DNA of 64,000 nt from an uncultured Phycicoccus sp. (GTDB lineage: Bacteria; Actinomycetota; Actinomycetes; Actinomycetales; Dermatophilaceae), in the NCBI RefSeq assembly GCF_947495705.1, contig NZ_CANLZR010000001.1, forward strand, positions 372,001-436,000. Reading direction: 5' to 3'. This document shows positions 7,346 to 18,800 of this stretch, in pieces. The position numbers and the translations under genes are program-made. The notes beneath the pieces were generated by a model. It did not search any database. It was not told where the DNA came from and saw nothing but the letters and a program-made list of their open reading frames with translations. The stretch's first letter is position 1. Each line of letters starts with the position of its first letter.

Positions 7346-9271
7346 TCAGGGGAGCGGGATGGGCGGCAGCGTGACCGCCTTGCCCGTGCGGCGTTCGGAG
7401 AGCTCCGCGAGCGCCGACCGCACGGTGCTGCTGTACAGGTGCGCGCCGCGGATGCTGGGGTGGATGTCGTCGGACTGGAGCATCCCGCTGGTATCGGCCA
7501 GGGCCGCGTCCCAGTCGGCGACGACGACGTTCGGGTGGTCGCGCACGACGTCGCGCAGCGTCTCGTTGTCGCTGCGGGCGCGGGCGTAGCGGCCGTGGAC
7601 CGTGACGACGACGACCATCCGCTGCGGGCCGATGGCCTCGAGCGTTGTGCGGAGGGCCACCTCGTCGGTGCCGTGGTTGGTGCCGAAGGCGAGCACGACG
7701 GCGCGGCGGAGGTTGTCCCCGCGGGCGGCGACGAGGGCGGGGGCCTCGCTCCAGCGCCGGTTCGAGCGGGCGTCGAGGCGGATCTTCGGGAAGTAGTACG
7801 CCATCGCGTCGCTGGCCCCGACGAGCATCGAGTCGCCGAACGCGTCGATCTGGGAGCCCTTGGGCATCGTCCACACCGCCGGCTTCGCCGTGGCGGTGGC
7901 GGTGGGGGTCGCTGCGGGAGACGGGGCCGCGGTGGGCGTGGGGTCGACGGCGGCGGCCCGGGCCAGGGCTGCCTCGCGGGCGGCGAGGGACGCGGCCGTG
8001 GAGGTGCGCTCGGGGGCGGTCAGCAGCACGACCGGAACCGCGACGGCGACGAGGGCGACCGTGGACCACACGACGCGGGCCCGCCGGGTGCCCCCGGAGC
8101 GCAGCCGCCGGGTGGCCGCGGCGAAGGCCCCGCGGGCGCCGCGCCGGCGGACCGGGGACTCGACGAAGCGGTACGACAGGTCGGCCGCGGCGAGGGTGAC
8201 GACGACGGCCCACAGCCGGGTCAGGACGTAGTCGCCGCCGCCGGGCGCCACCGGCAGGTCCTGGCCGACGACGAGCACCACCGGCCAGTGCCAGAGGTAG
8301 ATGCCGTAGCTGCGGGCGCCGAGCCACCGGGCGAGCGGGACCTCCAGCAGGGCCCGGAGCCGCCCCGGCCGCTCGACGACGACGAGCACGAGCGCCGCCG
8401 TGGCGAGGGAGGCCAGCAGGATGCCGCCCCGGAAGGTGAGGGCTGAGCGTTCGTCGGCCAGCGCGAACAGGGCGCCGAGGGCGGCGAGGGCGAGGACGGC
8501 GACGGTGCGGCGGTGCCTCGACCAGGCGACGGTGCGGGTGAGGGCGCGCCCGGGGGAGGCGAGCGCGAGCGCCAGGGCGGCGCCGATCATCAGCCCCATG
8601 GCGTGGGTGTCGGTGCCGTAGTACACCCGGGTCGGGTGCTCGGGGTCGAGGCGGACAGCCATGAGGAGGGCGCTGACCGCGGCCAGGCCGAGGACGGCGG
8701 CGACCCGGTGCGCGGGCCGCCGGACGAACCGGAGCAGGACCAGCAGGGCGAGCGGCCACACCAGGTAGAACTGCTCCTCGACGGCGAGCGACCACAGGTT
8801 GGCGAGCAGCGTGGGGGAGGTGCTCGCGAAGTAGTCGGTCCCGGCGCCGATCTCGAGCCAGTTCGAGGTGAAGGTCGCGGCGCCGAGCACCTGGCGCCCC
8901 ACGCCGACGAGGAGGTCGCTCTCGGTGAGGCGGGCGAGGAGGACGGCCGCGGGGACCATGACGAGCAGGGCGGGCAGGAGGCGTCGGGCCCGCCGGGTCC
9001 AGAAGGCGCGCAGGTCGACCGCGCCGGTCTCGGCCCGCTCGCGCACGAGCAGCGTCGTGATGAGGAAGCCGGAGACGACGAGGAAGACGTCGACGCCGAG
9101 GAACCCGCCGGGCAGCCAGGTGGGGTCGAGGTGGAAGACGACGACGGCCACGATGGCCAGGGCGCGCAGGCCGTCGAGACCGGCGAGCCGCCGGGCCCCG
9201 CGCCGAGGGTCGGCGGCGGGACGTCGCGCCGTCGCGACGCCGCCCCCCTCGTGGTGGCCGTGCGGCTCCAT
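7346..9271 (-). CDS. membrane acyltransferase (OafA/YrhL family) with SGNH domain, second copy
   Basis: Second acyltransferase-3/SGNH protein of the window, 641 residues, predicted to O-acylate an envelope polysaccharide. The acyltransferase-3 domain (about residues 28-390) holds the catalytic-type histidine in VVVFHLDPTWLPGGFLGVDV and the signature NLWSLAVEEQFYLVWP. After a membrane helix near residue 400 and a Pro/Thr/Ala linker, the SGNH domain has the serine block DAFGDSMLVGASDA (about residues 480-493) and the Asp-x-x-His block DDIHPSIRGAHLY near the C-terminus, so its triad looks complete. It is monocistronic, with a leaderless TACCGT promoter. Confidence 0.85.
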   Translation of the reverse strand: MEPHGHHEGGGVATARRPAADPRRGARRLAGLDGLRALAIVAVVVFHLDPTWLPGGFLGVDVFLVVSGFLITTLLVRERAETGAVDLRAFWTRRARRLLPALLVMVPAAVLLARLTESDLLVGVGRQVLGAATFTSNWLEIGAGTDYFASTSPTLLANLWSLAVEEQFYLVWPLALLVLLRFVRRPAHRVAAVLGLAAVSALLMAVRLDPEHPTRVYYGTDTHAMGLMIGAALALALASPGRALTRTVAWSRHRRTVAVLALAALGALFALADERSALTFRGGILLASLATAALVLVVVERPGRLRALLEVPLARWLGARSYGIYLWHWPVVLVVGQDLPVAPGGGDYVLTRLWAVVVTLAAADLSYRFVESPVRRRGARGAFAAATRRLRSGGTRRARVVWSTVALVAVAVPVVLLTAPERTSTAASLAAREAALARAAAVDPTPTAAPSPAATPTATATAKPAVWTMPKGSQIDAFGDSMLVGASDAMAYYFPKIRLDARSNRRWSEAPALVAARGDNLRRAVVLAFGTNHGTDEVALRTTLEAIGPQRMVVVVTVHGRYARARSDNETLRDVVRDHPNVVVADWDAALADTSGMLQSDDIHPSIRGAHLYSSTVRSALAELSERRTGKAVTLPPIPLP

Positions 9272-9277
9272 GCGGCA

Positions 9278-9283
9278 ACGGTA
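9278..9283 (-). promoter_or_regulatory. -10 box (TACCGT) of the 7346-9271 acyltransferase
   Basis: On the minus strand TACCGT lies 6 nt before the ATG at 9271; leaderless arrangement. Confidence 0.45.
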
Positions 9284-9330
9284 GTGACGGGTGGTGACAG
9301 TGGGGCGGAGGCGCGCGGTGCAGACCTCCC

Positions 9331-9336
9331 TACGAT
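9331..9336 (+). promoter_or_regulatory. -10 box (TACGAT) of acylphosphatase gene
   Basis: TACGAT is followed by 7 nt and the ATG at 9344. The in-frame ATG at 9335 lies inside this box, which argues for 9344 as the start. Confidence 0.55.
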
Positions 9337-9343
9337 GGAGCGG

Positions 9344-9691
9344 ATGAGCACCGACGACGCCAGGGGCCGGCCGGGCCCCGCCGACCCGGCACCGGTGCGC
9401 TGCACCGTGTTCGTCCGCGGGCTGGTCCAGGGGGTGGGGTTCCGGTGGTGGACCCGGGCGCGGGCCCTGGAGCTCGGGCTGGCCGGGTGGGCCCGCAACA
9501 CCGCCGACGGCCGCGTCGAGGTCGTGGCGGAGGGGCCGCGGGCCGCCGTCGAGCGGCTCGTGGGGCTGCTGCGCGAGGACCCGCCGGAGGCGTCGTCGTG
9601 GTCGGCGGCCGGCCGCCCGGGGCGCGTCACGTCGGTGTCCGCCCCCCTGTGGGCCGAGGCCAAGGGTGAGTCCGGCTTCCGCGAGCGCTGA
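9344..9691 (+). CDS. acyP: acylphosphatase
   Basis: Small cytoplasmic enzyme hydrolysing acyl phosphates such as acetyl phosphate or 1,3-bisphosphoglycerate. The 115-residue protein contains the acylphosphatase core VRGLVQGVGFRWWTRARA with the catalytic-type Arg and the catalytic Asn in GWARNTADGRVEVVAEG. It has about 20 extra N-terminal residues (STDDARGRPGPADPAPV). In many Actinobacteria acyP lies directly before smc; here 6.2 kb of other genes separates them. Start set by the leaderless promoter. Confidence 0.92.
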   Translation: MSTDDARGRPGPADPAPVRCTVFVRGLVQGVGFRWWTRARALELGLAGWARNTADGRVEVVAEGPRAAVERLVGLLREDPPEASSWSAAGRPGRVTSVSAPLWAEAKGESGFRER

Positions 9692-9706
9692 CCACCCCCG
9701 GCTTCT

Positions 9707-9784
9707 CCCGACCTTTCAGGCCGGCGTCCGCCGACACGCCGCTGTCGGGCCCCCGGACGCGGACCGCAGCCTGAAAAGTCGGGG
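9707..9784. repeat. long imperfect inverted repeat (compound hairpin)
   Basis: Outer arms 9707-9721 and 9769-9783 pair over 15 bp with one mismatch. Inside, 9724-9730 pairs with 9754-9760 (7 bp) and 9731-9736 with 9743-9748 (6 bp), so almost the whole 78-nt element can fold into one long hairpin. It fills the gap between acyP and the chorismate mutase promoter. Its right arm shares CCTGANNNNTCGGGGTC with the palindrome at 31875-31905. It could be a transcription terminator of acyP or a dispersed REP-like repeat; no T-run follows. Confidence 0.6.
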
Positions 9785-9825
9785 TCGGTCGGTGGGACGG
9801 TGCGCGCCGGCCGGCCCGGCGTTCC

Positions 9826-9831
9826 TACGAT
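9826..9831 (+). promoter_or_regulatory. -10 box (TACGAT) of chorismate mutase gene
   Basis: TACGAT followed by 6 nt and GTG 9838; leaderless arrangement with no Shine-Dalgarno sequence. Confidence 0.55.
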
Positions 9832-9837
9832 GGTGGG

Positions 9838-10128
9838 GTGAGCGACATCCCTCCGGACCTCGCGCGGCTGCGCTCGAGCATCGACAACATCGACGCCGCG
9901 CTCGTCCACCTGCTCGCGGAGCGGTTCAAGTGCACCCAGGCCGTCGGCGAGCTCAAGGCCGAGATGGGGATGCCACCGGCGGACCCCGGCCGCGAGGAGG
10001 CCCAGGTCGCACGGCTCAAGGCACTCGCGGACGACGCGGGCCTGGACCCCCGGTTCGCCGAGGCGTTCCTCAACTTCATCATCGCCGAGGTCATCCACCA
10101 CCACGAGCGCATCGCGAACCCCGACTGA
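9838..10128 (+). CDS. chorismate mutase, AroQ class
   Basis: Converts chorismate to prephenate, the entry to phenylalanine and tyrosine. The 96-residue all-helical protein shows the AroQ pattern: LARLRSSIDNIDAALVHLLA with the first catalytic Arg, then RFKCTQAVGELKAE with the active-site Lys/Arg region, and REEAQVARLKALA before the last helix FLNFIIAEVIHHH. No signal peptide is present, so it is the cytoplasmic form rather than the secreted mycobacterial type. It is a single gene, convergent with the ACP gene 18 bases downstream. Confidence 0.9.
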   Translation: MSDIPPDLARLRSSIDNIDAALVHLLAERFKCTQAVGELKAEMGMPPADPGREEAQVARLKALADDAGLDPRFAEAFLNFIIAEVIHHHERIANPD

Positions 10129-10146
10129 GTGTCGGCCGCGCCCCGG

Positions 10147-10395
10147 TCAGGCGGGGGCGCGCGCGGTGAGGAAGCGCGTCGCGCGCTCGACGGTGCGCAG
10201 CGACTCCGCCTCGTGGTCCTCGATGCGGAAGCCCACGATGCCGCTCAGCTGCTCGACGACCTCGACGAAGTCGAGCGAGTCCAGCTCGAAGGCGTCGCGG
10301 AGGTCAGCGTCGTCCGGCAGCGGGCCGAGGTCGGCCCCGGGCACCACGTGGCCGATCGCCTCCTGGAGGACGGCACGGGCCTGGTCGGGTGTCAT
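10147..10395 (-). CDS. acyl carrier protein of the ligase/2-oxoacid dehydrogenase operon
   Basis: An 82-residue acidic acyl carrier protein. The phosphopantetheine attachment site is FELDSLDFVEVVEQL with Ser40, inside the usual four-helix pattern (VLQEAIGHVV at the N-terminus, RIEDHEAESLRTV and VERATRFL at the C-terminus). It is the last gene of a five-gene minus-strand operon, starting 4 bases after the E2 stop; its Shine-Dalgarno AAGGAG lies at the end of the E2 gene. No ketosynthase, AcpS or thioesterase is adjacent, so it is not the usual fatty-acid ACP locus. The context suggests it carries an acyl group made or activated by the operon (inference). Confidence 0.9.
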   Translation of the reverse strand: MTPDQARAVLQEAIGHVVPGADLGPLPDDADLRDAFELDSLDFVEVVEQLSGIVGFRIEDHEAESLRTVERATRFLTARAPA

Positions 10396-10399
10396 GGCG

Positions 10400-11632
10400 T
10401 CACCGCTCCTTCTGCTCCATCGTCGATGCGGGGTCCTGGAGGGCGCGGTCGAGGGCCTTGAGGAAGCGCGAGCCGATCGCCCCGTCGGTCGCGCGGTGGT
10501 CGGCGGCCAGCGTCACCGTCACGAGGGGGCGGACCCCGAGCATCCCGTCGACCGCCCACGGCCGCTCCGAGACGGCCCCGAACCCGACGAGCGCCACCTG
10601 TGGCGGGTAGATGACCCCGGCGACGGACTCCACGCCCTGGTCCCCGAGGTTCGACACGGTCAGGCTCGGCGGGTCGAGATCGGACCCCCGCAGCCGGCCG
10701 CCGCGGGCCCGCCGGGTCAGGTCGCGGACCCGGGTCATCATCGCGACGGCGTCGAGCTCCTCGGCCCCGGCGATGGCGGGCACGAGCAGCCCGCCGCTGC
10801 GCAGCGACAGGATGAGCCCGAGGTCGACGTGCTCGGCCGGCCGGAAGGCGTCCTCGACCCAGTGGCCGTTGAGCTCGGGGACCTCCCGGGCCGCGAGCGC
10901 GGTGGCGCGCAGCAGGCACGCCGCGGGCACGAGACGCTCGGCGAGGGACAGCTCGAGGTTGCGCTCGCGCACCCATTCGAGGGTGCGGTGCAGGTCGACG
11001 GTGAGGGCCAGGTGGTAGTGCGGGATCTCGGTGTTCGACCGGGTCATCAGCGCCGCGATGCTGCGGCGCATGTCGAGGGCCCGGGCGGGGGCGTCGTGCC
11101 CGGCGACCGGCGGGGATGCCGCACCGGTCGCCGGCGTCGATGCTGCGGCCGCCCGCACGTCCTCGGCGCGGATGACCCCGTGCAGTCCGGTCCCGTGCAC
11201 CGTGGCGAGGTCGACGCCGAGCTCGTCGGCCAGCCGGCGGGCCAGCGGCGAGATCCGCCCCGGACCCCCGCGGTGGGGGAGCCGGGTCGCCGTGGGCGGG
11301 GCGGCCGGCGCGGGGGCCGCAGCAGCATCAGGCTCGGCGGCGTCGCCGGCGTGGGTGTCCGGGGCGGCGGGGGGGCCGGCGACCGCGGTGCCACCGTCGG
11401 CGTCCGTCAGGTGCGCGAGCACGGTCCCGACGGGCACCTTGGTCCCCGGGTCGACGTCGAGGGAGGCCACGACGCCGTCGTCGAAGCACTCGACCTCGAC
11501 GGCGGACTTCGTCGTGTCGACGACCGCGACGATGTCGCCGCGGTGGACGACGTCGCCAGGTGCCACGAGCCACTCCAGCACGGTCCCCTCGGTCATGTCG
11601 GCACCGAGCGACGGCATCCGGAACTCAGGCAT
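10400..11632 (-). CDS. 2-oxoacid dehydrogenase E2 (dihydrolipoamide acyltransferase)
   Basis: E2 core protein, 410 residues, that carries the acyl group on lipoate and passes it to an acceptor. Domain order: one lipoyl domain (residues 1-78) with the lipoylated lysine in DTTKSAVEV (Lys42), an Ala/Pro linker, a peripheral-subunit-binding domain ([17 protein letters not shown] ... GVIRAEDV), and the catalytic acyltransferase domain with the active-site motif ADHRATDGA near residue 375. Everything needed for catalysis is present. Its ATG overlaps the E1beta stop by 8 bases. The genuine acceptor could be CoA, as usual, or the ACP encoded next; the sequence alone does not tell. Confidence 0.92.
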
Positions 11633-12644
11633 AGTCGCCCACCGCCCGCCGGGCCGCGGCGACGACGTCGGCCACCTGGGGCAGCGCCGCGTCCTCGAGG
11701 TGCTTCGGGTACGGCACCGGCACCTCCACCCCGCACACCCGCTCGACGGGCGCGTCGAGCTCGTACAGGGCGCCCTCGGCGATCCGCGCGCTGACCTCGG
11801 CCGCGATCCCGACGCTGCGCCAGCCCTCGTCGACGACGACGGCCCGGTGGGTCCGCGCGACCGACCCGAGGACCGCCTCGTCGTCGAGGGGGCGCAGCAC
11901 GCGCAGGTCGAGCACCTCGGCCTCGATGCCCCGCCCGGCGAGGTCGTCGGCCGCGGCCAGGGCCCGCCAGACCGTCCCGCCGTACCCGATGAGCGTGACG
12001 TCCGTGCCGGCCCGGCGGACGGCGGCATGCGCGATGTCGACCGGTTCCGGCTCCTCGGGCAGCTCGCCGGCGAGGTTGTAGAGCGTGCCGTGTTCGAAGA
12101 TCACGACCGGGTCGGGATCCTGGAGCGCCGGCCACAGCATCCCCCGGGCGTCCTCGAGGGTCGCGGGCGCGAGCACGGTGATGCCCGGGATGTGCGCGTA
12201 GTAGGCCTCGAGGCTGCGCGAGTGCTGCGCCGCGAGCTGGCGCCCGCCCCCCGTCGTCATGCGGATGACGAGCGGCACCGACACCTGCCCGCCGGACATG
12301 TGCCGCAGGGTCGCCGCGTTGTTGAGGATCTGGTCCAGCGCGAGGAGGCTGAAGTTGACCGTCATGATCTCGACGATCGGACGCAGGCCACCGAGGGCCG
12401 CGCCGATGCCGGCGCCGGTGAACCCCGACTCCGACAGGGGCGTGTCGCGCACCCGCTCCTCGCCGAACTCCTCCAGCAGGCCGAGGCTGACGGCGTAGCT
12501 GCCGCCGTAGCGGCCGACGTCCTCGCCCATGAGGAAGACCCGGTCGTCCCGCTGCATCGCGTCGCGGTGGGCCTCGCGCAGCGCCTCGCGGTACGTCGTC
12601 GCGCGCGTCGCGGGCCGGGTGGGGTCGTGCAGCGTCGTCGTCAC
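11625..12644 (-). CDS. 2-oxoacid dehydrogenase E1 component, beta subunit
   Basis: Beta subunit of the heterotetrameric thiamin-diphosphate decarboxylase, 339 residues. Characteristic blocks are [26 protein letters not shown] (the Glu that activates ThDP lies in GEDVG), [15 protein letters not shown], and the C-terminal transketolase domain [13 protein letters not shown] ... VVVDEGW. It starts with GTG overlapping the E1alpha stop (GTGA) and overlaps E2 downstream, so subunit stoichiometry is likely set by translational coupling. Substrate is not predictable; by overall pattern it resembles pyruvate/acetoin dehydrogenase E1 rather than the single-chain AceE type. Confidence 0.92.
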
Positions 12645-13714
12645 GGTGCTCCTCCTTCGTCGGGCCCGGACGCCCGGACCGGGCCGCCCTGGCCGGCGTC
12701 CGCGGGGTGGGTCCGCAGGAACCGGGTGAGGTCGGCGACCGGCTCGGTCGGGCCCGCCTCCGCTGCGGCGACAGCGGCCTCCACCTCGGCGGCGACGTCG
12801 GTCTCGAGGCGGTCGACGTCCGCGGTCGTGAGCCGGCCGCCGTCGAGCAGCCGGGTCGTGAGGAGGGCGATCGGGTCTCGCTGCCGGTAGTGCTCGATCT
12901 CCGCCTTGTCGCGGTACCGGTCGGGGTCGTACATCGAGTGCGCCCGGTACCGGTAGGTCTGCAGCTCGAGGAACACCGGGCCCTCGCCGCGGCGGATCGA
13001 GGCCACCGCCTCGTCGACGGCGGCCCGCACCTCCTCGACGTCCATCCCGTCGACCGTGCGGGCCACCATGCCGTAGCTCGCGGCCCGGGCCGCCAGGTCG
13101 GTGTTGGCGTGCTCGCGCTTGAGGGAGGTGCCCATCGCGTACAGGTTGTTCTCGCAGCAGAAGAGGACCGGCAGGTGCCACAGCGCGGCGAGGTTGGCGC
13201 TCTCGTGCAGCTCGCCCTCGGCGAAGGCGCCGTCGCCGAAGATGGCGGCGGTGACGACCGGCCGGTCCCGCATCGCGTCGGCGAGGGCGAGGCCGACGGC
13301 GAGCGGCAGGCCACCCGCGACGATGGCGTTGCCTCCGTAGAAGCGGCGCGAGGCGTCGAAGAGGTGCATCGACCCGCCGCGGCCCCGGCTGCAGCCGGTG
13401 GCGCGCCCGTACAGCTCGGCCATGACCTCGGCCGCCGGCAGGCCGCGGGCGAGGGCGTGACCGTGCTCGCGGTAGGTGGACACGACGGCGTCCTGCGGGC
13501 CGAGCGCCCCGAGGACGCCGACCGCCGTGGCCTCCTCGCCGATGCACAGGTGGAGGAAGCCGCGGATCCGGGTCGCGCTGTACAGCTCGACGCACTTCTC
13601 CTCGAACCGCCGGATGAGGAGCATCTGGCGCAGCATCGCCACCGGGTCGGGCCGCGCCGGGTCGCCGGGGGTCGTGGGCGTGGTCGTGGCGGCGTCCGCC
13701 GCGGTCCCGGTCAT
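12641..13714 (-). CDS. 2-oxoacid dehydrogenase E1 component, alpha subunit
   Basis: Alpha subunit of the ThDP-dependent E1, 357 residues. It has the ThDP/Mg motif from [15 protein letters not shown] to CENN (about residues 185-213), [15 protein letters not shown] at the N-terminus, the IGEEATAVG and EHGHALARG blocks, and the [18 protein letters not shown] loop near the active site. The N-terminal ~25 residues are low-complexity Thr/Ala/Pro. Its start overlaps the ligase stop (ATGA) and its stop overlaps the E1beta start, making ligase-E1alpha-E1beta one coupled message. Confidence 0.92.
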
Positions 13715-15519
13715 GGTGTCTCCTCCACCGTCGAGGTGTCGCCCTCGGGCAGGCCGAGCTCGCGCGCCTTGAGCAGCCTCCGCATGACCTTGCCGCTGCG
13801 GGTGTGGGGCAGGTGGGGGTCGAAGGCGATCTCCCGCGGCGCCACCGACCCGAGCCGGTGCCGCCCGAAGACGATGAGCTCGCGACGCAGCGCCTCCGAC
13901 GGCTCCACCCCGGGGGCGAGCGTGACGAACGCCTTGACGATCTCGCCCGCGAGGGGGTCCGGCTTGCCGATGACCCCCACCTCGGAGACCGACGGGTGCT
14001 CCATGAGCGTGCTCTCGACCTCGAACGGGCCGATGAGGTGGCCGGCGGACTTGATGACGTCGTCCGCCCGGCCGACGAACCAGACGTAGCCATCGGCGTC
14101 GACCCGGGCCAGGTCACCGCTGAGGTACCAGCCCCCGCTGAACGCCGCCGCGTAGCGCTCGGGCTGGTCGAGGTAGGCCCGGAACATCGAGGGCCACCCC
14201 GGTCTCAGGGCGAGCTCGCCCACCTCGTCGGGGCCGCAGCGCTGCACCTCACCGTCGCGCACCAGCGCCCGCCCGTCGTCGCCGCGCGCGAGCACGGCGA
14301 CCTCGACGCCCGGCACCGGTCGGCCCATCGACCCCGGGCGCACCGGCATGCCGGGGACGTTGCTGATCATGATCGCGCCGGTCTCCGTCTGCCACCACGT
14401 GTCGTGGATGGGCCGCCCGAAGGCCTCGGTACCCCACATCACCGCTTCGGGGTTGAGCGGCTCCCCGACGCTCACGACGTGCCGCAGCCGGGACAGGTCG
14501 TGGGCGCGGGCCAGGTCGGCGCCGCTGCGCATGAGCATCCGCAGGGCGGTGGGCGCGGTGTAGAAGACGGTGACCTGCTCGTCCTGGAGGACCGAGTACC
14601 AGCGCCGGGCGTCGAAGTCGGCGGCGTCGGTCACGACCGTCACCCCGCAGGTCAGCGGCCCGATGATGCCGTAGGACGTGCCGGTCACCCAGCCGGGGTC
14701 GGCCGTGCACCAGTAGACGTCGTCCTCGTGCAGGTCCAGCACCATCCGCGCCGTCGCGTGGTGGGCCACGACCGCCTCGTGCACGTGGACGGCGCCCTTG
14801 GGCCGACCGGTCGTGCCGCTCGTGAAGTGCAGCAGCGCGGGGTCCTCGGGGCCGGTCTCGGCCACCGGCGGGCGAGGCAGCCCCTCGGCCCGGGTCTGCG
14901 CGTCGCGCCACGAGACGGTCCCGGGCGGCGCGTCGTCCTCGAGCACGACGACGGCCGACAGGTGGGGCAGGTCGTCGCGGGCCTCGGCGACCTTGCGCTC
15001 GTAGGACGCCCGGTCGGTGACGAGCAGCCGCACGTGCCCGAGGTCGAGCCGCTGGCGGACCGGGCCCGGCCCGAACGCGGGGAACAGCGGGCAGTAGACG
15101 CTGCCGTTCCACAGGGTGCCGAGCGCGGCGACGAACAGCTCCGGGGACCGGGGGAGCAGCGTGCAGACCCGGTCGCCGGGCCCCACCCCGAGCCCGGTGA
15201 GAACGGCGGCGAACCCGGCGGCGGCGTCGGCCAGCTCGGCGTACGTCAGCTCGGTGCGGGGCGCGGTGCGGTCGAGGAACCGCACGGCCACGGCGCTGCC
15301 CCGGCCGGCGTCCACCTGCCGCTGCACGGCCTGGTACGCGATGTTGAGGCGCTCGCCCGGCTCCGCGGCGAGCCAGCCACGGGCCTCGTCCCAGGTGAAG
15401 GTGCGCGTCCGCTCGGCGTGGTCGCCGATGAGCGGTGGCCGGGCGGGTGGGTGGTTGAGGACGGGGTAGTCGCCCGAGGGCGTCGTCCGGCCGGTCGAGC
15501 TCGTGGTCGTCGTGTTCAC
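13711..15519 (-). CDS. acetyl-CoA-synthetase-like acyl-CoA/acyl-ACP ligase
   Basis: AMP-forming acyl-activating enzyme of 602 residues, first gene of the operon. Visible motifs: [19 protein letters not shown] (adenylate loop, about residues 232-250), [11 protein letters not shown] (about 373-383), [20 protein letters not shown] (about 448-467), and the C-terminal [13 protein letters not shown] whose Lys is the catalytic and potentially acetylated residue. Overall it resembles the AcsA group of acetate-CoA ligases. The GTG start has a GGAGG 6 bases upstream. Possible roles: making acetyl-CoA from acetate, or loading an acyl group onto the operon's ACP; neither is shown by sequence. Confidence 0.85.
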
Positions 15520-15891
15520 CGGGCACCTCCGCCACCGACCGGCACGCCCGCGCGGGGTGCCGTGTCCACACTGCCGTGGTCGGCCGAGGCCGGATGGCCC
15601 GGACCGCGGCGCCCGCGGCTACCTCCAGTACAGCACCGCGCGACGGCGCCGGATCGGGACTGTTGCCCATGTCGCACGGGGCCGTCGGGGGCGTGCCGGC
15701 GCGCGGCCGACGGCGAGGCGGCCCCCGTCGTCCGGCACCCCTGGTGTCGCTGCCGTCCCACGAGCCACAGTGGCCTCAGGCGTGACCGCACCCGGCGGCA
15801 CATCCCCGGGCGCCCGCCCCCGCCCCGGTAGCATCGCCCGCGACCCGGGCCCCGGACCCGACCGCCGCATCGAGAGACGACGACCCGCCGC
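15520..15891. other. 372-bp divergent intergenic region (ligase operon / smc)
   Basis: This is the longest gene-free stretch. It must hold promoters for both the minus-strand ligase operon and smc. Seen: a GGAGG ribosome-binding site for the ligase next to 15520, a DnaA-box-like GTGTCCACA at 15562-15570, an 8-bp inverted repeat (15681-15688 with 15707-15714), and a TAGCAT -10-like box at 15829-15834 about 58 nt before smc. No convincing small gene is seen. Confidence 0.5.
15829..15834 (+). promoter_or_regulatory. putative -10 box (TAGCAT) of smc
   Basis: TANNNT-type hexamer in the smc leader; no recognisable -35 was found at 16-18 bp upstream, so support is modest. Confidence 0.3.
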
Positions 15892-18800
15892 ATGTACCTC
15901 AAGACGCTGACCCTCAAGGGGTTCAAGTCCTTCGCCTCGGCGACGACGATGCGCCTCGAGCCCGGCATCACGTGCGTCGTCGGCCCGAACGGCTCCGGCA
16001 AGTCCAACGTCGTCGACGCCCTCGCCTGGGTCATGGGCGAGCAGGGCGCCAAGAGCCTGCGCGGCGGGAAGATGGAGGACGTCATCTTCGCCGGCACCGC
16101 CGGGCGCCCCCCGCTGGGCCGCGCCGAGGTCAGCCTGACGATCGACAACACCGACGGCGCCCTGCCGATCGAGTACACCGAGGTGACGATCACCCGGACG
16201 ATGTTCCGCGGCGGCGGCTCCGAGTACGCCATCAACGGCACGTCATGCCGCCTCCTCGACGTCCAGGAGCTGCTCTCCGACACCGGCCTCGGCCGCGAGA
16301 TGCACGTCATCGTCGGCCAGGGTCAGCTCGACACCGTCCTGCGCGCGACCCCCGAGGAGCGCCGCGGCTTCATCGAGGAGGCCGCGGGCGTCCTGAAGCA
16401 CCGGCGCCGCAAGGAGCGGACGCTGCGCAAGCTGGAGCAGATGGAGGGCAACCTCACCCGCGTCCAGGACCTCACCGGCGAGATCCGCCGCCAGCTCGGC
16501 CCGCTCGGGCGCCAGGCCGAGACCGCGCGCCGGGCGGCCGTCGTCCAGGCCGACGCGCGCGACGCCCGCCTCCGCCTGCTCGCCGACGACCTCGTCCAGC
16601 TGACCGCCGTCGTCGAGCAGGAGGTCGCCGACGAGACCGCGCTCCTCGAGCGGCGCACCGCGGTCGAGGAGGCCCTCGGCGCGGTGCGGGGGCGCCTGGC
16701 CGAGGTCGAGCGCCGTGCCGCTGAGGCCGCGCCCGAGCTCACCCGGGCCCAGGAGCGCGTCGTGCGGTTGCAGAGCCTGCGGGACCGTCTCGAGTCCACC
16801 GCGTCGGTCGCCGCCGAGCGCGTCCGGCTGCTCTCTCAGGACGAGGAGCACGAGACGACGTCCGGGCGCGACCCCGACGAGCTGCGCGCCCAGGCGGCGC
16901 AGGCCCGCGAGGCCGAGGCGCTGCTCCAGGCCGAGGTCGCCGAGATCACCGAGGCGCTCCAGGAGGCCGTCGCCGCCCGCGAGGAGGCCGAGGCCGCGTT
17001 CGCCGCCGAGCAGCAGCGCCTCTCCCGGCACGCCCGGGCCGCCGCCGACCGCCGCGAGGGTCTCGCCAAGCTCGCCGGGCAGGTCGGGGCCCGCCGCAGC
17101 CGCATCGAGGCGGGAGAGGCCGAGATCGGCCGCCTCCAGACCCTCGTCACCGAGGCCCGCCAGCGCGCCACCGAGGCCGAGCGCGAGTTCGCCCGCCTCG
17201 AGGGCGGCATCGCCCACGAGGAGGAGGGCGAGGAGGGGCTCGACACCCGGTACGAGGGCGCCGCCGAGCGGCTCGCGGCCGTCGAGGCCGAGATCCAGGA
17301 CCTGCTCGCCGCCGAGCGCGAGGCCGAGCGCGACCGGTCCTCGGCCCAGGCGCGACTGGAGGCCCTCGAGATGAGCCTGCGCCGGCGGGACGGGGCCGCG
17401 ACGTTGCTGGAGGCCGCCGACGACGGCCACGGCATCATCGGCACCGTCGCGTCGCTGCTCCACGTGTCCGGCGGGCACGAGGCCGCCGTCGCCGCCGCCC
17501 TCGGCTGGGCGTCGGAGGCCCTCGCCGTGGGGTCCGCCGAGTCGGCCGCCGCCGCGTTCGCCTCCCTGCGCGACAACGACGCCGGGCGGGCCGCGCTGCT
17601 CGTCGGGCAGACCGCGGCGCCCAGCGACCCTGCCGGCTGGCCGGACCTCGAGGGTGAGGCGGTGTGGGCCCGCGACGTCGTCCAGGCCCCCGCCGAGGTC
17701 GCCCCCGCGGTCGAGCAGCTGCTCGAGCGCGTCGCGCTCGTCCCCACCGCGGCCCACGCCATCGCGCTCGCCTCACGCCATCGGGGCGTCACGGCCGTCA
17801 CCGACGGCGGCGACGTCTTCGGCCCCGGCTGGGCCCGGGGCGGCAGCAGCGCGGGCGAGAGCCTGCTCGAGGTGCAGGCCGCGGTCGAGGAGACCCGCGA
17901 GGTGCTCGCGGACGCCACGAGCCGGGTCGAGCGGTCCCGGTTCGCTCTCGCCGCGGCGCGTGAGCGGGAGCGCGAGGTCGCCGGCGACGTCGACGCCGCC
18001 CTCGAGGCCCTGCACGAGTCCGACGCCCGGATGGCCGCCGTCGCCGAGCGGCTCGGCACCCTCGGGGCCTCGGTGCGGACGGCCTCCGCCGAGGCCGAGC
18101 GTGCCGAGCGGGCCATCGCCAACGCCCGCGAGACCGTCGAGGCCGCCCGGGTCGAGCTCGACGCCCTCAGCACCCGCCTCGCCGAGGCCGAGCAGGAGCC
18201 GCTCGAGGACGACGCGGACCCCTCCACCGACGAGCGCGACCGGCTCGAGCTCGAGGCGAGCCGTGCCCGGACCGCCGAGACCGAGGTCCGCCTCGCCCTG
18301 CGCACCAAGGAGGAGCGGGCCCGGGCGCTCAAGGGCCGTGCCGACTCGCTCGAGGGGGCCGCGCGCAACGAGATCGCCGCCCGCGAGAAGCTGCGCGAAC
18401 GCCGCGAGAAGCGCCGCCGCGAGGCCGAGGTCGCCGCCGCCGTCCACGAGGCCGCCGGGTACGCGGGGCACCGGGTCGCCCGGGCGTTCTCCCGGGCCGC
18501 GGCCGTGCGCGACGCCGCGGAGGCCGAGCGTGCCGAGCGCGACCGCGCCGCCAGCGGGCTGCGTGCCGAGCTGGTGCAGGCCCAGGACGAGATGCGCGAC
18601 CTCACCGACGCGGCGCACCGTGACGAGATGGCCCGGGCCCGGCAGCTCGCGCGCATCGAGCAGCTCCAGGCCAAGGCCGTCGAGGAGCTCGGCGTCGACC
18701 CCGAGGTGCTCGTCGAGGAGTTCGGGCCGCACCAGCCCGTCCCGCACGTCCCCGGCCCCGACGACGACCCGGGCCACCTCCCCGAGCCCGCCGCCTACGT

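Follow-up and report, generated by a model that had tools for sequence, protein, structure and literature searches.

The window analyzed here is a stretch of 64,000 nucleotides from the genome of an uncultured Phycicoccus sp. (contig NZ_CANLZR010000001.1, positions 372,001 to 436,000), and it contains an operon encoding an AcsA-type acetate--coenzyme A (CoA) ligase, the alpha and beta subunits of a pyruvate dehydrogenase (PDH) E1, a dihydrolipoyl acyltransferase (E2), and a free acyl carrier protein (ACP). We found the same conserved five-gene cassette, of which this block is a copy, to be widespread, and the link between E2 and the ACP to be the tightest within it. Judging from the sequences, cells under stress or hypoxia may use the cassette to carry acetyl groups from acetate or pyruvate, via E2, AcsA, or both, to its dedicated holo-ACP, a reading to which we assign a probability of about 0.42. 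In this reading we infer the acetyl load, the ACP as its acceptor, the use under hypoxia, and everything downstream of acetyl-ACP.

The five genes are transcribed in the order AcsA, E1alpha, E1beta, E2, and ACP (Table 1). A preliminary description of this DNA had given the successive overlaps (4, 4, and 8 bases) and a 4-base gap between E2 and ACP; these were exact by open reading frame (ORF) coordinates, and its view of a single coupled operon that includes the ACP is backed by these coordinates and by the retention of the ACP in relatives. AcsA scored 817 bits against NF003313, acetate--CoA ligase (cut-off 729), E1alpha 430 bits against TIGR03182, PDH E1alpha (cut-off 394), E1beta 401 bits against NF006667 (cut-off 321), and the ACP 27.2 bits against PF00550 (cut-off 20.8). 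E2 contained one lipoyl domain, an E3-binding domain (residues 126-160), and a catalytic domain, each above its cut-off. The lipoyl lysine (K42), the HxxxDG-type site (H379 and D383 within DHRATDG), and the DSLDF motif of the ACP, in which Ser40 is the phosphopantetheine serine (LDSLDF), were found as described earlier. In AcsA, WWQTE was located at residue 375 and SGK at residue 575; we take these motifs to represent the acetate pocket and the catalytic lysine, respectively. By sequence, the best solved relative of AcsA was the acetyl-CoA synthetase 9g79_B, those of E1alpha and E1beta were 1ni4_A and 1ni4_B (the alpha/beta E1 of mitochondrial PDH), and the structures nearest to E2 were PDH E2 chains. 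The window E2 is not of the acetoin type by its score against NF011457 (79 bits, far under the cut-off of 307). With family scores that point to acetate and pyruvate as substrates, the expected load is acetyl rather than hydroxyacyl. Of the earlier suggestion that an acyl or hydroxyacyl unit is delivered to the ACP, the acetyl version is thus favored by the family scores, and hydroxyacyl units and sugar-phosphate donors were left unsupported.

Table 1. Coordinates of the cassette genes and of the inserted segment in the window.
Feature	Position	Strand	Details	Family or method
AcsA-type acetate--CoA ligase	13711-15519	minus	602 aa, GTG start, first cassette gene	NF003313
PDH E1alpha	12641-13714	minus	357 aa, ATG start, 4-base overlap with AcsA	TIGR03182
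PDH E1beta	11625-12644	minus	339 aa, GTG start, 4-base overlap with E1alpha	NF006667
Dihydrolipoyl acyltransferase E2	10400-11632	minus	410 aa, ATG start	PF00364, PF02817, PF00198
Free ACP	10147-10395	minus	82 aa, ATG start, S40 in LDSLDF	PF00550
Insertion relative to G534	10117..15756	no strand		blastn, window 9000-17000 vs L132

A profile of 13 E2s scanned over 84,980 genomes gave at least 596 pattern-matching stretches, 571 of them encoding relatives, and the best 80 of these 571, chosen by E2 similarity, were kept as loci. The ACP gene was present in all 80 loci and stood immediately after E2 in 79; its absence from most relatives had been named in the preliminary description as one of two findings that would refute the idea, and this one did not materialize. 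E1alpha and E1beta were each found in 79 loci, the missing one being accounted for by a locus that ends there, and AcsA was found in 76, in line in 74 of them and on the opposite strand in two, the other four loci ending before AcsA. Across these loci and the ACP-anchored set described below, a few genes read in two frames in draft assemblies (E2 of L186 and L193; AcsA of L058, L094, and L190); for them the counts record presence and make no claim of intactness. E1alpha and E1beta read as one ORF in L103, L104, and L117, and assorted insertions within the cassette occurred in L076, L098, L102, L116, and L127, none of the extra genes being seen widely. According to the record titles, the 80 loci come from Actinomycetota, Alpha-, Beta-, and Gammaproteobacteria, desulfo-bacteria, Acidobacteria, Bacteroidota, Chloroflexi, Nitrospira, Rokubacteria, and Binataceae. 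E2 also matched 357 plasmid records, and 13 of the best 30 were examined. The order acsA, pdhA, (pdhB), E2, ACP was present in 11 annotated plasmid regions, in four of which a pdhA of about 2 kb occurred without a separate E1beta gene, and all five genes were found by tblastn in two unannotated records. The five-gene order, which the preliminary description had proposed to seek in other genomes, recurs across phyla and on plasmids.

An E1beta tree was built from 119 rows by a quick method, and some of its non-cassette branches are long. The 92 rows from cassettes fell on one side of a single branch (SH-aLRT 99). The copies of Humibacillus (L051) and Terrabacter (L072) grouped with that of the window (support 92) and were 72% identical to it in AcsA and 77-81% in E1beta. 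The motif WWQTE was retained in 67 of the 68 AcsA rows longer than 400 aa, DHRxxDG in the E2 of all 80 relatives, and a VxTxK lipoyl-type motif in 77. The catalytic Ser/Thr position of E2 was occupied by Thr in 77 of 81 rows and by Ser in four, including the window; both residues occur there in known E2s, and the position is not diagnostic.

The association of the ACP with E2 was close. The Asp-Ser pair of the ACP was invariant in all 80 relatives, and the gap between E2 and ACP had a median of 0 and was at most 60 nt in 77 of 80 loci by model starts. Two wide gaps were filled, in L102 by a glucokinase-like ORF and in L068 by a second ACP; the latter locus is a Desulfobacterales cassette with a tandem pair of ACP genes after E2 (L068:11227-11870). 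When 396 genomes of the phylum were scanned with an ACP profile, 21 matches reached 72.6 bits or more, the next scoring 66.2, and 20 of these 21 formed an ACP-anchored set (the window's own match was left out; G001 is itself a row of the profile). E2 was found beside the ACP in 16 of these 20 loci, 12 of which had all five genes, while in four E2 and ACP were present on a locus truncated by contig ends (L181, L186, L191, and L192); among the 12 complete loci, E2 of L193 and AcsA of L190 read in two frames. In one further locus, a frame-disrupted E2 remnant adjoined an apparently intact ACP (L188:1438-2073), which may reflect decay of the cassette or an error in the draft assembly. Cassette-type ACPs with no PDH genes in reach were seen at L184:1453-1707 and at about 7030-7250 of L195. 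Both adjoin acetyltransferase-like ORFs that resemble each other (GNAT by eye), and these neighbors might point to another ACP partner. With the window included, a cassette-type ACP lay beside E2 in about 17 of the 396 sampled genomes. Thirty E2 loci were also taken from 149 genomes of the order. The ACP was present in the six closest, one of which is the window's, and none was detected at E 0.001 in the 24 more distant loci. These results indicate that the link between ACP and E2 is strong, not absolute.

The position of the ACP also bears on the idea that AcsA, not E2, charges the ACP as an acyl-ACP synthetase, the PDH part merely supplying acetyl-CoA. AcsA was indeed present in the 76 loci that extend to it, but it is the E2 gene that the ACP accompanies, directly after it in 79 of 80 loci. 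Where AcsA is encoded past the ACP on the other strand and thus on a separate message (L057:11775-13490 and L062:14688-16493), the ACP remains with E2, as it does beside the E2 remnant of L188, and AcsA scores as an acetate--CoA ligase. We therefore regard charging by AcsA in place of E2 as decidedly unlikely.

The host genome (3.54 Mb) carries additional E1 and E2 genes, a separate AceE-type PDH E1, two lipoamide dehydrogenases (E3) above the TIGR01350 cut-off on two other contigs, LipB, one match to an AcpS-family phosphopantetheinyl transferase (PPTase), and a second ACP-like match that scores above the cassette ACP. Because the host has these other components, the housekeeping PDH is probably a different one, and because E3, LipB, and the PPTase are encoded elsewhere, the cassette can borrow E3, lipoylation, and 4'-phosphopantetheine transfer. 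The preliminary description had noted no E3, ketosynthase, or lipoate ligase nearby. The absence of E3 was confirmed, every TIGR01350 match of the host lying outside the window; for ketosynthase and lipoate ligase the statement holds among the ORFs at 5-22 kb, where none was noticed (eight were Pfam-scanned, with no such scan for the remainder of the window). An E3 motif was found in none of the 80 E2-anchored and none of the 20 ACP-anchored loci, and many PDH operons likewise lack E3. The argument that a missing E3 means a non-PDH reaction was rejected, since the E3-binding domain is kept in E2 and E3 is encoded elsewhere in the genome.

In the scheme that we propose, acetyl would be drawn from two sources, acetate through AcsA and pyruvate through E1alpha/E1beta. 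AcsA would make acetyl-CoA (or acetyl-ACP) from acetate, E1 would decarboxylate pyruvate and put the acetyl group on the lipoyl arm of E2, and E2 would pass it to the dedicated holo-ACP, instead of or alongside CoA. AcsA could feed in directly or by way of acetyl-CoA, E3, LipB, and the PPTase would be taken from the host, and reversible acetyl transfer among acetyl-CoA, lipoyl, and ACP might allow AcsA and PDH to share one pool. The cassette would serve chiefly when cells are short of oxygen, dormant, or stressed. Ordinary E2s hand acetyl to CoA. Acetyl-ACP is favored as the product here because the neighboring ACP has an invariant phosphopantetheine site and because the E2-ACP link is the tightest in the cassette.

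The proposed use under stress comes from the surroundings of the relatives, where the preliminary description had suggested looking for extra conserved neighbors. Universal stress proteins (USPs) were present in 32 of the 80 loci (29 of these among the 55 loci that span 17 kb or more), and other genes recurred in 6-12 loci. USPs gave 76 ORF hits in 1.43 Mb of loci (53 per Mb), compared with about 2 per Mb in 40 genomes of the class (about 335 domain matches over some 164 Mb); this ratio is rough, since several phyla are represented among the loci, the counting differed between the two sets, and the background sizes are rounded. Counted by protein clusters and named from cluster representatives, the recurrent neighbors were CBS-BON proteins (12 loci), histidine kinases (11), Hsp20 (10), P-type ATPases (8), A/V-type ATPases (8), and a phosphoenolpyruvate synthase or pyruvate phosphate dikinase (PPDK)-type enzyme (6). 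The A/V-type ATPase cluster comprised loci of several actinobacteria (L057, L071, L073, L077, L085, L086, L095, and L130), and only L130:12398-14470 was named by Pfam. In the 11 annotated plasmid regions, USP was listed in seven and Hsp20 in five; no gene named nonribosomal peptide synthetase (NRPS) appeared in their tables, which are incomplete and include two "AMP-binding" genes in L170. On a Sulfitobacter plasmid, fabI, an enoyl-CoA hydratase/phosphate acetyltransferase gene, and an acetate kinase gene were located just before acsA (L172:195-3597), suggesting a possible link to acetate fermentation.

Sites resembling those of a dormancy regulator were found upstream of some cassettes. Thirty-five actinobacterial upstream sequences were compared, from 30 of the 35 actinobacterial E2-anchored loci, four plasmid loci, and the window. 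The palindrome GGGNCNNNNGNCCC occurred 16 times in 16.5 kb upstream of AcsA, in 11 of the 35 sequences, and 96 times in 720 kb elsewhere in the loci. The upstream enrichment was about 7-fold, with a Poisson P of 2e-9 for sites that are not independent within one locus and a pattern that was picked post hoc. This palindrome, looser than the strict patterns treated below, was picked after some sites had been seen and was compared with the OsdR consensus only after its first use; it was present in 12 of all 75 upstream regions (shuffle mean 3.1, maximum 8). In PMC5069765, the OsdR consensus of Streptomyces coelicolor is given as AGGGCCGATCGGCCCT, and the authors regard orthology of the OsdR regulator with the mycobacterial dormancy system as most likely. 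The palindrome GGGNCNNNNGNCCC fits the consensus AGGGCCGATCGGCCCT as given there.

In the Phycicoccus genome itself, the cassette is an insertion. Homology to a genome of the same genus, G534 (locus L132), ended at 10116 and restarted at 15757 by blastn, and 5,640 bases of the window corresponded to 45 in G534, where the order is acyltransferase, acyP, chorismate mutase, and smc, the cassette is absent, and the SMC N-terminus is 95% identical. The block had been described as lying between acyP and smc. The insertion is borne out; its left neighbor, however, is a chorismate mutase gene (9838-10128, plus strand; identified by Pfam and by relatives), which sits between acyP and the cassette. A close E2 was found in one of the 12 genomes of the genus, the window's own, the best E2 in the other 11 showing 39% identity over part of its length, and no cassette genes were found upstream of smc in 29 loci from 29 family relatives (flank of at most 1.5 kb). 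A foreign composition of the cassette was rejected, as its G+C content is 75.0% and that of its flanks 75.0 and 75.6%, and the search for mobile-element ends at the borders yielded a 9-base repeat only. The window neighbors at 5-22 kb were housekeeping or unrelated genes. At 7346-9271, an Acyltransferase-3 protein with a weak SGNH/GDSL-like C-terminus is encoded, which adjoins acyP in several family relatives too. An alternative is that the block is an ordinary spare PDH/AcsA operon with the ACP as a passenger that has no role in acetyl transfer. The block looks dispensable, given the AceE-type PDH already in the genome, and 11 of the 12 genus genomes do without a close E2; but the gene order and the ACP serine are kept across phyla and plasmids, and the cassette E1betas form a single group, making a mere passenger very improbable.

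Several observations weigh against acetyl transfer to the ACP in stressed or hypoxic cells. The catalytic residues of E2 are ordinary and give no sign that CoA has been given up, and in the plasmid E2 of L048 the site reads DHRVSGG, the catalytic Asp being gone. No E2 lay within reach of the ACP in three of the 20 ACP-anchored loci (L182, L184, and L195), so the ACP can exist separately. USP was missing from 48 of the 80 loci (and from 26 of the 55 that span 17 kb or more), the palindrome from 24 of the 35 actinobacterial upstream regions, the window copy included, and the strict mycobacterial DosR 20-mer and the FNR box gave no general signal in the 75 upstream regions compared with shuffles. 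The window copy itself stands among housekeeping genes. No user of acetyl-ACP was common to the loci, which, together with the resemblance of every enzyme part to ordinary CoA enzymes, would suit an ACP that serves as a structural or regulatory subunit, or as a gauge of acetyl-CoA, in a stress-related PDH/AcsA pair making acetyl-CoA. Since the attachment serine is invariant, the phosphopantetheine arm probably matters, and a mere scaffold would not need the serine; we consider this role unlikely.

A LipB-like gene immediately 3' of the ACP in three of the 80 loci points to yet another role. These loci (L065:11544-12251, L078:3376-4035, and L079:5598-6356) all belong to Desulfobulbaceae/Desulfuromonadaceae, and the L065 gene is Pfam LplA-B_cat. 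The ACP might then serve lipoylation, as the octanoyl carrier for a LipB that arms the E2 of the same operon, with acetyl going only to CoA, and its position next to E2, the lipoylated protein, would agree with this. No LipB neighbor was seen in the other 77 loci, however, LipB and another ACP already exist in the host, the 24 more distant E2 loci manage without the ACP although their E2s need lipoate, and AcsA would be left unexplained. A lipoylation carrier thus appears unlikely, and we retain acetyl transfer to the dedicated ACP as the preferred reading. A broader version of it, in which a clade of PDHs with a dedicated ACP as acceptor maintains a hypoxia or dormancy pool of acetyl-ACP apart from acetyl-CoA, the cassette being passed between phyla, is offered only tentatively and may well not hold.

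In the available text of PMC6127331, PMC3759415, and PMC9104464, "pyruvate dehydrogenase" and "acyl carrier" had no matches, and "acyl carrier" and "acetyl-coa" had none in that of PMC5069765. The parts of the cassette are known; the fixed combination of PDH, AcsA, and ACP, its spread, and its context were not found described in the open-access literature, in searches needing several exact terms per paper. The occurrence of the cassette in many unrelated bacteria, often among stress genes, suggests an undescribed handling of acetyl in stressed or oxygen-starved cells. The textbook product of PDH is acetyl-CoA. If our reading is true, stressed or non-growing cells would have a separate acetyl pool; the cassette joins both acetyl routes with a carrier protein of its own, is shared between distant phyla and plasmids, and is a defined five-protein system open to purification and testing.

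Compared with PDH complexes having an alpha/beta E1, the cassette agrees in the families of its E1alpha, E1beta, and E2, in their domains, and in their catalytic residues, and it differs in its AcsA, its dedicated ACP, the lack of an E3 motif in the loci, and its own E1beta group. Its AcsA resembles acetate--CoA ligases in scoring above the NF003313 cut-off and in its expected motifs, and it differs in being kept together with PDH and ACP. In the naphthyridinomycin and quinocarcin pathways, a thiamine pyrophosphate-dependent E1, a lipoyl E2, and an ACP reportedly act together in two-carbon transfer. This analogy is a likeness of parts, on which the literature searches found no text, and the cassette differs from those pathways in its AcsA, its stress or housekeeping neighbors, and the lack of a gene named NRPS in the listed regions, whose gene tables are incomplete. 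With the DevR/DosR-OsdR dormancy regulons and the low-oxygen lxa locus of B. cenocepacia, the cassette shares USP, Hsp20, nitroreductase, or PPDK genes near some of its copies, and OsdR-like sites, by a pattern picked post hoc and absent from the window copy, lie upstream of some copies.

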